This document shows, piece after piece, positions 41,701 through 53,700 of a DNA stretch of 64,000 nucleotides. The translations under genes were made by a program, and so were the position numbers. The stretch is from positions 85,543,062 to 85,607,061 of the forward strand of contig NC_134367.1 in the NCBI RefSeq assembly GCF_035582795.1. The letters are read 5' to 3'. Source of the stretch: Mycteria americana (taxonomy: Eukaryota; Chordata; Aves; Ciconiiformes; Ciconiidae). The stretch's first letter is position 1; the number at the start of each line of letters is the position of its first letter. The notes under the pieces were generated by a model. It saw only the letters and a program-made list of their open reading frames with translations, made no database searches and had not been told where the DNA came from.

Positions 41701-44700
41701 CTTTAAATCAAGTCTATGCTGTGAAAAGTCTAGAATTCTAGAAACTAATCTCAATTTTCAACAAAAGTAGAGTCAATTCAAGCTCTGCATGCTGTCCTGC
41801 CCATAATTTGTGGGACACTAAATGTGGACCTAATGGTCTATTTGATCTTTTCTGTCCTTTACTTATGCATTCAGATGCCCATAGGGTTCAGATAGTGAAG
41901 GTATTTCTTCAGCACTTATACCTCCCCATAAGCAAATGGACTGAGACTACAGGCATATTTCATGTAGGCACCAACACAATCTTTTATGTCTAGTTCTCTT
42001 ATATTTGTATTGGGTTTTTCTCCAAATGTACATTCTGCTGTCCAACCAATACAATTTCTTAAACTTCTAGTATCGCAGAATTATTGTGCAGGCTGAGACT
42101 GTAGTCTGAGTTGTTCCAGTTGAGCTGACCTCTGTATTCTAATGGAGCCCCATTAGTCCATTTGTATGAGTACCTTTTAGGATTATATGTTGGCTTATGC
42201 CAACCAGTTTCAGATGACTGACCACATTTAAGATGACAAGAAATTAATTACTTGAGCACTTTTTACATTTTTCCTTTTTTTACTGCCTGGTGTCTTTTAC
42301 AGAGACCTCTGCCAAAGAAGGGCTGCTGCTGTGGTGTCAAAGAAAAACTGCTCCTTACAGAAATGTGAACATTCAGAACTTCCATCTTAGGTAAACTTCC
42401 ATTATTTCAAGGGGAAGAAGCAGTTTGAAATATTTTAGGTCAAATTTTTCCCACAGTTGTGTAGGTATATATTTGACAGGAGAATTTCACTCTTCACTGT
42501 TATCTAGACTTCTTTCAAATTCTCATGCTCTGTCTTTAGAGTCTTATTTTGGTTAGCCTTTGGCATTATTTCCCATGGCTTCCATAGTTACTATTTAAAA
42601 GAAAAAAAATCCCTACTACATACAGAATGACCATATTACGTTATTAGAGGTCCTTGGTATATGGCAATATCTGAGTACTGCAGCATAGTGACTTGGCAAA
42701 TGACTGCTTTCAAATGAGAGCCACTGTAGGTATGTAGAAATGGCTGTTCTTGGCAAAAATACCAATGTGTTGAGCATGCAAATATCTCATTATGATGAAT
42801 CAGTCTTTATTATTTTGTAACATAACTATAAATAAGGAACCAAAATTGCACTCAGTACACAACAGCAGCACTTTAAACATGTTTGTTTTCAGAATCAGGA
42901 TCGTTACTTAAGTTGGAAAATTTAGTGAAGCTCCAGCCTTGTGGTTCTCTGTTTTCATTAAGGGCTAGAAAGGGAGTTCCAGGCCATATGCAGGCTGCTT
43001 GGTTTTGGGATTTCACTGGGCTAATTCCTGTAGCTCTGCTGGTGACCCACCTCATTAAACTACATGACTTGCCATTTGTACTGTTTTACCATGTGATCTT
43101 GCCTTCCCTGAAACCCTTACAGTACTTACAACAAGAGCCCTGTATTAGAGTGTTTTGGTGTTTTGAATTAATTCTTAATGTGCAGCACCTAAAGCACATG
43201 TAGTGATAGAGAAGATACAGTTCATTCATCCACAGATAAAAAGAACGTGTTTGATTTACAGTCCCTGTATTACTTGTTAGAGATCTGAAATTTGTTATGT
43301 GTTATTTTCCTTGAATATATAGAGGTATATTTCAGTAGAGCTTTACAGGGATGCAGGGTATACTGCAAGTTACAGTATCAGAATCTTAGTGTGTATATAC
43401 ATATGCTGGTCTGATACATGGTATGGGGAAAACATCTTGCATGGAGGTACCTTGGTTAATGTTTGGGTTGATCGGCTCTTGCAGAACTACTTTACAATGG
43501 GCCATCCAGACCATTTTAGTGTATATGTTTTGGAAAAAAGCTTTTTGCCAGTTTGGTGCTCATTTTGATTCAGTTTTACCTTCTGGATTAATTTATATTA
43601 TACTATGTATGTATATTCTGCTTAATTATATTACATTTTTATTGGAGATGGTTCTGTTATTTGAAGGATCTACCCAGACATCTCAGTGACAGGGATTCCA
43701 ACAGTCTTAACATGTTTAGTATCACACAATTACTGCACAGGATAAGACCTCAAACCCACAGTCCCAGTGATTGTGTAAAGTGTTTATATAAAGTATCTTT
43801 CAGAATAATTGCTTCTGGCTGAAAGGAACCTTTCACAATCTTTCCAAATAGATGCTATTTGTAGCTCCGTTCATTGTCTATTCTTGCCTTGAAAGGCAGT
43901 GGGCCTGAAGTCACATTGAAGTATAAGAGCTCAGATCGAAGCTGTCATATGTGTGAAGTGTTTTAAATAAACTAAGCTGATTTATGACTTCTTACTTCTA
44001 TGAGCACAACATGGTTGTGCCATTAAAATTGTCTGAAATAACTGACACAGAAAAAGCCAACTGCTTCAGCAAATTCAAGTAATTGCAGGTTTGCTCTCTT
44101 TTTATTTTTTCGCAAATGTGCTGTAAGTGTAATAGGACATTATGCACTTTCATTGATGCATGTGTACTCTGAGCTATCCTGGAACACTGCACAAACTAAG
44201 CAATTGAAATCAGGGACTGTTGCACATGATGTACACTGCCTAGAAAGTATTATGGAGTCTGTATGGACTGTAGAGTAAGATATGTACTACAGGAAAAAGA
44301 GTACAGTAATAGAAAAGCTCAGAGGGATGAGAGTTGACAGAACATAAGTGTCAGGATTTGACAGGAGAGTTCCTGCTTGATTTTAAGCCTTGAGCAAGGA
44401 TCAAACTGTAAAATGCCATGACTTTATTAACTTTTTTTTCCATTCTATTTTTTGTTGTAAAGCTGGAAAGATGGCCTTGGATTATGTGCACTTATCCACA
44501 GACACCGACCTGATCTTATTGACTACTCCAAGCTAAATAAGGTCATCAGTCTGGGTGGTACAGCATGCTGTCCTGCAGTGATTTGGCTCACTTCTGGTTT
44601 GCTTAGCATGTTTTCTAAAACACAAGCTGAGGAGTGCATACTAATTCTGACTGGCTTTTTAAGCTCCCTCCAAAAACCCAGTGACATGGAGGAAAGGACC

Positions 44701-50700: not shown

Positions 50701-53700
50701 AAAAACAATTTCATAGCAGAATGCCATCTTTTTTCTTCCTGCTGGATATTATTCCTGCTACAGATGTCAAAATCATCATAACAGATGCTCAGAGAATAAA
50801 CCCTTCTCTTATGCTTTCAGGATTGTTTTTAAAATGTTAAATGCTTAACGGTAAGTACAAACGGCAGCATAAAACGTTGCTACTATGCAAAATAGACACA
50901 GAAACATACACAGACATCTCAGAAGACCTCTGGAATCATGTCCTAATGAAAAGAAGGAAAATTTTTAAAAGCAAGACAGTTCCGAGTGGGACATACTTCA
51001 GGTATTAGTAATATAAAGAAAAGATACGATAATGCTAAGATTATAACTAATCCACATGCAACTTCCAGAGCACATCTCCTCAGATCAAAATGTAGTCTGT
51101 CTTTCCTGTGTCTTAGTAATTCTAAGTCACCAGACATACACGTGCCAGTTCTTAAGCAGATAGTCCTGGTAAAATTAAGGTCACTCCCCCTGTGACAATA
51201 CTGCAGAATCAAGCTTATTAAAAAAAATTCCACCTCTTTGTAAGAGCTTATGTTGAATTTCTAGTGTACGTTTTATTCTGTCGGCACCCGTCAATCTAAC
51301 ACTAAACTTATTACAGCTTTGTAGAGTTTCTAGAGTACAGAGCTATGGAAAAGAAAACAATCAGAATGACACTATGTTATGCTTTTATTTATTCATCCTG
51401 TTTTCTACTCCTCGAGTCTTTTTTTTTGTTTTGTTTTAATTTCTCCCCCCCTCTTGTAGATATTGTGAACACTCCCAAACCCGATGAGAGAGCTATCATG
51501 ACATATGTGTCCTGCTTCTACCATGCTTTTGCTGGAGCAGAGCAGGTATTAATCAACTGTCCCTTCAGGTTGCTGTGTTTTTGATTGGTTGTTTCCCATT
51601 TCCACTAGTTTATTAAAAAGAATAATTTAGTACTTTGTGGTTTTAATTAACAATTGCAAGTATTACTTGAGCACTAATACTTGTTTTTAACCAACACTTG
51701 AACCTGTTTTAGTTAAATGTTGTGTAGCAAGTTGAACTTCTTTAATTCCAATGGACATTTCTGTTTCTAATATTGGGTCTTTATTTGGTGATTATAAAGA
51801 CTATTTCAGAAAAATTGTATTTGCAGATACTGTGAAATTGAGTTGCTGTTTGTTGCTACATCAACATATGTGTTTGCTGTGTAAAAGAATGTTTGACTTT
51901 TGGAGATTGAGACTATTCTAGACTTACTCATGCTGAGTAGTAATTTAGGGCTGGATTTTCAAAGATGCCTAAAGATGCAGAAAGGCACAGAAGACATCCA
52001 ACACAGTATTTGTGTCTGGTTCCCACTGGAGGCAACTGAATTATTTGTGGATCAAAGTACTAGTATAAGAGGCAAGAACAGCAGCAGCAGATCTGTCATA
52101 CAGGATGGGATTCTGACTTACAAATATGGCATTTCCCACTGTTCTGCTTCATGCATTTCTAGCCTACAAATGCACATAACCCAACTTATGTGACAAAAAA
52201 TAATAAAGAACCCTTGAAGTAGTTGATATTTTTCCTTCATCCTCAGGATTTAATTTCCCTTCCTGTCTGGTAGGCCCCCTACACCTTAGCACAGCTATGC
52301 TGTTGCACCCTCTTGCTTCTGGGTATGAAGGGTTTGCTATTCATGCAAAAGGGGGATTCCAAATACTCTGTAACACAGGAGTCTACACAGATATTTGATT
52401 AGATATACTCCAGACTCACAGTTGTGTGAAAGTATAGATCTGTGATGTCAAACTACAAATGTAAATTTTAAATATGGCAGAGCTACACGGTGCCTTCACA
52501 AATAAATTTGGCAGGGGGCATGAAAAGATTTGCTGTCAGTGGTTGAGCTGCCCATATGGGCAGGTCAAGGGTATATGTACATATGATGTGCAGGTATAGA
52601 GTGGTCTGGGACTCCTGAATCACATCCGGTGTCTTTCCAGTGTGGCTAACAAATCGGATACTTTCTTGGTGTGATTTAAAAAAAATAACCTAATAGGATA
52701 ACTTTAAGAATGGCCTAAGTCCTCTTTGAAAATAAAAGATTTATTAGACAACTATAATGGCAGTGTGAAATTCCCCCTTGTATAATAACTCTTCATTGTA
52801 CAACAAGGTGACTTCTGTGCTGATCTGTGCCTTTTTCAGGCCATTGGAATCTGTGACTACAGAAGGAGAGTAAATATATATCTAAGTAACCTAGGAGCAC
52901 AAATCAACAACTATAAAACAATGTGATTTTTATTTGCAGCAGCCACGTTCTCTCTCTTTCTCCAAGCCTGTACCTTTCTCAGAATGTGTTTATGAATATG
53001 TCCTGTTTATTTGCTGTGTTTTACAGGCTGAGACTGCAGCTAACCGGATCTGTAAGGTGCTTGCTGTGAATCAGGAAAATGAGAGGTTGATGGAAGAGTA
53101 TGAGAGACTAGCAAGTGAGGTAAAGACAGCTGTATCTTTAATGTGGTGATAATTATGTTCATAAAATACTGAAAGCTGAAAGATTCATGCACTTTCTGCA
53201 AGACAGCAAAGTGAAGACACCATGAGGGTAAATCTCACAGTGGTAGGGTACAAAGCTCCGTTGACCAAAATGTCAAGGTTCAGGTGACTCCTTTGCCACA
53301 GACTTCCTGTGTGACCTCCAGCAAGTCGCTCAGTCTCATTAACGTGCCAAAAAGGGTGTTTTGAGGACTGTCATCGGTCTGCCCCAAGACCAAGTTTGCT
53401 CTCTGTAATCTCCAAATACAGCCGTCCTTGACCACATGTGCAACATACAGGATCCTGTTACTCTAAGCAAGCCCATTGGCTTTGTGTACTGCAAAGCACA
53501 CCTGGACAGCGTCTATTAGGGTGTTCACAATGCACCTGTGAACATAGGCAGCAAGTAAATGAAGAAGGGGGCACACTGTGCTCCTCCTGTGCTTTCTTGG
53601 TAAATGGCAAATTTGTGGAGCCAGGACTACAGATGTGTAGTGCACAAGTGAGAGCTCCCTTGTCTTTAAAGCATAACCTGCAAAAACATACTGAGATCAT

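Follow-up and report, generated by a model that had tools for sequence, protein, structure and literature searches.

The 64,000-nt stretch of Mycteria americana DNA analyzed here (contig NC_134367.1; the window, whose numbering is used throughout) carries on its plus strand most of one intact ACTN2 gene, encoding alpha-actinin-2, in which exons 6 and 8, both coding for parts of the second CH domain (CH2), are each present as two tandem copies, 6a/6b and 8a/8b. The coding exons were placed with a human ACTN2 probe and their borders were refined by spliced translation, giving 21 exons that join into an 894-codon open reading frame (ORF) running from an ATG at 8600 to a stop codon ending at 77404, with the last eight exons (14 to 21) lying beyond the window end. 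The gene follows the order CH-CH, rod and EF-hand exons, the best match of its protein was alpha-actinin-2, and the product of exons 6a, 7, 8b and 9 was identical to human ACTN2 chains in PDB at 113 of 113 amino acids. Two CH domains are present in the protein, the Pfam CH match at residues 152-257 corresponding to CH2. The window lies within a single contig of a 1.35-Gb genome in 279 contigs, and ACTN1 (contig C5) and ACTN4 (contig C227, 1.6 Mb) from the same genome were used as yardstick paralogs.

As the original prediction for this stretch had stated, exons 6a and 6b are both 79 nt and exons 8a and 8b both 86 nt, with equal phases within each pair and introns of 1691 nt (6a-6b) and 1122 nt (8a-8b) between the copies, and coordinates and spliced translation agreed on this point. 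Each pair consists of neighboring homologous exons with intact splice dinucleotides. When 114 kb of ACTN2 was scanned for open 79-nt stretches bounded by AG and GT, 6a and 6b scored 147 and 145 (BLOSUM62) among 213 candidates with a runner-up at 5, and the corresponding 86-nt scan gave 151 and 150 for 8a and 8b among 207 candidates with a runner-up at 11. The four copies are beyond chance. A scan of the internal exons returned no further equal-length duplicated exon in ACTN2.

All 16 in/out combinations of the four copies were translated after splicing. Only the four that pair 6a or 6b with 8a or 8b remained open, each giving the full 894-aa ORF, whereas the other 12 stopped early, with 1741-2040 nt between the stop and the final exon junction downstream, and therefore fit the usual rule for nonsense-mediated decay (NMD). 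Forms with both copies or neither copy of a pair are out of frame and stop far upstream of that junction. The four stop codons that had been quoted for these wrong combinations were all recovered where they had been placed, and the division into four open and 12 closed combinations was confirmed. The broader claim that only four isoforms keep frame held for exons 6 and 8 taken alone but not for the whole gene, which has an in-frame EF-hand copy downstream. This 19a-like copy, found by BLAST outside the window (73509-73586), is bounded by AG and GT and lies upstream of the 66-nt exon 19 at 74745-74810; its length is most likely 78 nt, compared with 81 nt in ACTN1 and ACTN4. Because both copies are multiples of three, the reading frame places no check on the EF-hand pair, and the gene has more than four open isoforms. 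The pyrimidine tract of the 19a-like copy is set back from the AG.

Table 1. Exons, frame-shift stop codons and candidate regulatory motifs in the exon 5 to exon 9 region of ACTN2
Feature	Position	Strand	Description	Basis
Exon 5	42303..42390	+	88 nt, upstream partner of 6a/6b	Spliced translation
Exon 6a	44463..44541	+	79 nt, muscle-type, 26 aa, very weak donor AAG/GTCATC	Human ACTN2 identity, donor score
Two GCATG (RBFOX-type)	44563..44610	+	Begin 22 and 65 nt past the 6a end (44563, 44606)	Motif, putative function
ACTAAT (QKI-type)	44640..44645	+	99 nt downstream of 6a	Motif, putative function
TGCATG (RBFOX-type)	46182..46187	+	45 nt between motif and 6b	Motif, putative function
GU-rich stretch (RBM24/CELF-type)	46211..46223	+	In 6b acceptor; TGTGT 46211, TGTGTG 46218, GTGTG 46219	Motif, putative function
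Exon 6b	46233..46311	+	79 nt, ACTN4-like copy	Open, AG/GT intact
TAG, 6a+6b joined	46269..46271	+	13th codon of 6b	Rechecked
Exon 7	48022..48103	+	82 nt	Spliced translation
TAG, both exon 6 copies skipped	48032..48034	+	5th codon, in exon 7	Rechecked
Exon 8a	50252..50337	+	86 nt, strong donor AAG/GTGAGA	Spliced translation, donor score
ACTAAT (QKI-type)	50569..50574	+	232 nt downstream of 8a	Motif, putative function
Exon 8b	51460..51545	+	86 nt, muscle-type, weak donor CAG/GTATTA	Human ACTN2 identity, donor score
TGA, 8a+8b joined	51466..51468	+	3rd codon	Rechecked
Bipartite ACTAAT...TAAC (QKI-type)	51673..51691	+	128 nt downstream of 8b, TAAY-rich stretch	Motif, putative function from human data
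Exon 9	53027..53119	+	93 nt	Spliced translation
TGA, both exon 8 copies skipped	53029..53031	+	2nd codon of exon 9	Rechecked

The stops had also been described as built in to enforce exclusivity, and this part of the original prediction was not supported by comparison with the rest of the gene and with its paralogs. In the two shifted frames of the ACTN2 coding sequence a stop was reached after a median of 16 or 11 codons and after 77 or 87 at most, every shifted frame tested stopping anyway, and skipping or doubling the other frame-shifting exons of the gene (constitutive exons 2, 5, 7, 11, 12 and 13) led to a stop within 2-44 codons. Stops as early as those seen at codons 2, 3, 5 and 13 had a chance likelihood of 9-58% each, and these values were not multiplied because skipping exon 6 leads to a similarly early stop in ACTN1 (at codon 8) and ACTN4 (at codon 5), both with a single exon 6. 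Exons 6 and 8 measure 79 and 86 nt in ACTN1 and ACTN4 as well, and no second exon 6 was found in 90 kb of ACTN1 (247 candidates, next best 4) or in 30 kb of ACTN4 (130 candidates, next best -3). Since exon 6 has this length also in genes that carry it once, its frame clash did not arise on account of the duplication; this conclusion covers exon 6, exon 8 being duplicated in all three genes. The stops are an ordinary consequence of exon lengths not divisible by three, as in other frame-shifting exons, and NMD clears errors but does not make the exon choice.

Some observations cut the other way. When 8a is joined to 8b, the third codon is a stop in each of the three genes (TGA in ACTN2, TAG in ACTN1, TAG in ACTN4). 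Shifted frames are also not always short: once exon 8 is skipped, ACTN1 stops at codon 31 and ACTN4 at codon 112, and an exon 6 present twice would bring a stop at codon 13 in ACTN1 and only at codon 194 in ACTN4, so that earliness is not universal. If splicing within each pair were promiscuous and the stops had been selected so that four isoforms survive, NMD would itself be the enforcement device, and the early stop in all 12 wrong combinations, at codon 2, 3, 5 or 13, together with the third-codon stop common to the three genes, would be accounted for. The same exon 6 and 8 lengths in paralogs with a single exon 6 argue against this, and the late stops of exon-8-skipped ACTN1 and ACTN4 indicate that early stops are not a kept feature, which makes selection of this kind distinctly unlikely. 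What stands of frame-based enforcement is that the wrong forms are predicted NMD targets; inclusion of exon 8 depends on QKI in human and mouse, and that of exon 6 is reported to depend on RBM24 in human cells. Among human mutually exclusive clusters, 377 (60%) have lengths not divisible by three, and reads joining both copies were seen for 83 (22%) of those 377, according to passages of PMC5740500; NMD could keep further such reads from view.

Exclusion by the gene structure itself was also considered. Steric exclusion, which had been called implausible, was rejected for both pairs on their intron lengths of 1691 and 1122 nt, set against a donor-to-branch-point limit of <50 nt given in the same source (PMC5740500). 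The AG-free zones upstream of 6b and 8b span 87 and 43 nt, and steric exclusion was judged from intron lengths. The donors of all four copies begin with GT and none begins with the U12-like GTATCC. Pairing between the flanks of the copies was no stronger than in shuffled sequences, 60 of 100 and 13 of 100 of which paired as strongly. A mechanism based on RNA structure or splice-site incompatibility rather than trans-acting factors could point to a 16-nt pair, 88% complementary, that joins 44690-44705 with 46184-46199 in the region upstream of 6b, but this pair ranked only fourth in a list of ten, and with the shuffle results, the ordinary GT donors and no short intron also against it, such a mechanism is highly improbable. 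Separately, a 29-nt unit is tandemly repeated with 97% identity at 45734-45791, in the intron between 6a and 6b.

Splice-site strength differs among the copies. Scored with a vertebrate donor matrix against a set of 45 constitutive donors, the donors of 6a (-1.24), 8b (0.29) and 6b (0.89) were weak, with one, four and nine constitutive donors scoring below them, and that of 8a (6.34) was strong, with 38 of the 45 below. The weak 6a donor would fit an exon that needs help. The 6b acceptor (...AATGTGTTTTGTGTGAACTTGTAG) is pyrimidine-poor because it is GU-rich, and among the 14 ACTN2 acceptors examined it alone has GTGTG in the last 40 nt. GTGTG is the RBM24 motif, with CELF proteins favoring similar sequence, and by occupying the 6b acceptor RBM24 could ensure the use of 6a. 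RBFOX proteins activate an exon from a downstream site and repress it from an upstream site; the placement of candidate RBFOX sites around 6a and 6b (Table 1) is a lead only, and no GCATG occurs within 300 nt on either side of 8a or 8b. The bipartite QKI-type element after 8b is one of eight matches in the 64-kb window, another of the eight being at 51030, between 8a and 8b, and the TAAY density of the stretch after 8b is reached by 0.9% of 300-nt windows. QKI motifs lie downstream of activated exons in passages of PMC10202634, and the element after 8b would fit activation of 8b.

Exon 6b is identical to 6a at 19 of 26 amino acids and to ACTN4 exon 6 at 21 of 26. Relative to 6a it carries seven changes (G185A, L186F, C187N, I198L, S201D, N204E and K205E), four of its specific residues (A185, F186, N187 and D201) being those of ACTN4 exon 6, and when 6b alone was compared with PDB the best match was ACTN4, followed by beta-spectrin. 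It is four charges more negative than 6a and keeps R192. The two copies differ by 0.50 at silent sites (pS) and 0.16 at non-silent sites (pN). Among 50,000 trials in which 18 random substitutions were placed on 6a, seven or fewer amino acid changes with no stop arose in 1%, a value that takes 6a as the ancestor and depends on the assumed divergence; the same trial on the exon 8 pair gave 0.3%. The joint chance was 0.10, 0.003 and 0 (not one of 20,000 trials) when the 6b branch was given 0.25, 0.41 and 0.82 neutral substitutions per site. Exon 6b has intact splice sites, and its sequence looks ACTN4-like and under constraint.

The age of the duplications was examined with the paralogs. The 6a-6b pS of 0.50 is lower than the pS to exon 6 of ACTN1 and ACTN4, which is 0.74 and 0.81 for 6a and 0.72 and 1.07 for 6b. 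Trees from all sites and from third positions favored 6a with 6b, trees from first and second positions and from amino acids favored 6b with ACTN4, and the losing tree was never rejected at 5% in any site set (approximately unbiased [AU] test, 0.067 to 0.33). A tree uniting 6a with ACTN4 was rejected by first and second positions and by amino acids. These results fit either a duplication confined to ACTN2, with parallel change, or an older one with partial conversion. ACTN1 and ACTN4 of the same genome also carry two copies of the 86-nt exon 8; independent duplication within every one of the three genes was rejected (AU 0.017), and the other three exon 8 trees were not separated on 84 nt.

Exon 6 encodes residues at about 180-205 and exon 8 those at about 234-261, which places both pairs within CH2 as predicted, the last exon 8 residues lying just beyond it. 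R192 is one of three arginines thought to bind phosphatidylinositol 4,5-bisphosphate, and R243 stacks on W145 between CH1 and CH2, according to passages of PMC4980809; R243 lies within exon 8 and is kept in both 8a and 8b. The alternative copies keep R192 and R243 and change neighboring residues, and it is a fair guess that exon choice tunes phosphoinositide or actin control.

Taken together, these results make it likely that the two CH2 exon pairs of this intact ACTN2 gene are each spliced one or the other under tissue control, with the copy chosen by splicing factors and NMD clean-up a by-product. The combination 6a-8b would be the muscle form, identical as it is to human ACTN2 in this region, with 6b and 8a as the alternatives, and factors acting on weak sites would make the choice: QKI for exon 8, as shown in human and mouse and with its motif present here, and, perhaps together with RBFOX, RBM24 for exon 6, whose inclusion it is reported to promote in human cells. 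Transcripts that keep both copies of a pair or lose both are out of frame and would pass to NMD, a by-product of the lengths 79 and 86 rather than something evolved for exclusivity. Use of 6b, the action of QKI, RBM24 and RBFOX at this locus and an effect on actin or phosphoinositide binding are what we infer from these data.

Several points weigh against this interpretation. Both 6b and 8a are known here from the genome sequence of one species; no acceptor is poorer in pyrimidines than that of 6b (none of 49 lower), so that 6b could be little used; and the first of the three neutral branch values tried, 0.25 substitutions per site, leaves a joint chance of 10%. Trees from silent sites and from amino acids give conflicting answers on how old the 6a/6b duplication is. 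The motif positions are post hoc observations: GTGTG is contained in 4.4% of the 40-nt stretches of the window and GCATG in 12% of the 60-nt stretches of introns 5, 6a and 6b, and ACTAAY occurs seven times between exons 5 and 9, the sites after 6a, 8a and 8b being three of the seven. If 6b were a decaying or unused duplicate, recognizable only from its sequence, the exon 8 pair would be the one truly alternative pair, as might be expected from the poorest polypyrimidine tract of the set combined with a weak donor, from ACTN1 and ACTN4 having no second exon 6, and from the silence on a second ACTN2 exon 6 in the literature searched. We consider this unlikely, since 6b has an open frame and intact AG and GT, agrees exactly with 6a in length and phase, shows constrained substitutions and retains R192 along with its ACTN4-like residues.

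A more specific extension of factor-chosen exon pairs, possible but doubtful, is a coupled switch in which 6b would be used with 8a in non-muscle cells, and in striated muscle RBM24 would block the 6b acceptor while RBFOX and QKI promote 6a and 8b, so that both choices flip jointly to 6a-8b and phosphoinositide and actin control is retuned with R192 and R243 kept. The exon 8 half of the findings simply extends a published mechanism to another vertebrate. If 6b is expressed, it would represent an unreported ACTN2 choice in CH2 around R192, the two choices in one domain would offer a simple test system for linked splicing of separate exon pairs, and the arrangement would offer a reason for the need of muscle for a factor such as RBM24 that ensures the use of 6a.

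Elsewhere in the genome, the alpha-actinin loci found were ACTN1, ACTN2 and ACTN4, with no fourth exon set (ACTN3) among 18 matches to an 82-aa query. A CH2-like intronless stretch (L026:4832-5032, minus strand), seen in translation and 58% identical to the exon 6-8 protein, perhaps belongs to a spectrin-type gene rather than being an actinin retrocopy.

The exon 8 pair and its NMD mechanism are already published in human and mouse. Passages of PMC7782589 describe the human ACTN2 8a and 8b isoforms and report that in QKI-deficient human cardiomyocytes exon 8a or 8b is skipped with a stop gained in exon 9, that an NMD inhibitor raises the exon-8-skipped mRNA in these cells, and that Qki-deficient mouse hearts also contain the exon-8-skipped variant; PMC10202634 reports exon 8 skipping in adult mouse heart, crediting the NMD result to PMC7782589, and the finding on QKI, exon 8 and NMD is restated in a review (PMC8242579). 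The stork gene agrees with this system in the gene, the pair and the predicted outcome of skipping (a stop in exon 9 and NMD), with QKI-type motifs near exon 8. It differs in that the first stop after skipping is TGA at codon 2, whereas TAA is named in the passages of PMC7782589, and the exon 8 passages of PMC7782589 and PMC10202634 make no mention of an exon 6 pair.

Regulated inclusion of ACTN2 exon 6 is likewise not new. RBM24 promotes it in human cells, where it matters for sarcomere assembly (Lu et al. 2022, as described in passages of PMC10835012 and PMC12686484). The exon number is the same as that of 6a/6b here, but those passages describe one exon 6 that is included and no choice between two copies. 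A second ACTN2 exon 6 was not reported in the portion of open-licence PMC text searched, and the word 'exon' is absent from the main text of a 2026 ACTN2 review; on this basis the second copy is probably new, beside the already published regulated exon 6.

Among the paralogs, passages of PMC4465641 treat ACTN1 and ACTN4 as sharing a homologous-exon event and annotate ACTN2 with homologous exons, and an ACTN4 exon 8 variant, ACTN4-SpEx8, is described in PMC4539665. In this genome, too, ACTN1 and ACTN4 have a duplicated 86-nt exon 8; those events concern other paralogs, however, in which exon 6 is single. The nonmuscle/smooth muscle (NM/SM) exons of the alpha-actinin EF-hand, whose muscle exon is controlled by RBFOX1 and CELF against PTB in passages of PMC5840707, form a tandem pair in the same gene family, and the 19a-like copy shows that this ACTN2 has such a pair too; both of its copies (78 and 66 nt) are multiples of three, so no frame clash results, unlike exons 6 and 8. 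The human mutually exclusive clusters described in passages of PMC5740500 are homologous neighbors of equal phase and often of lengths not divisible by three, as are the pairs described here. ACTN2 is not named in the main text of that paper but is named among genes with such exons in PMC7969005, and compared with those clusters the stork gene has two such pairs within one protein domain.

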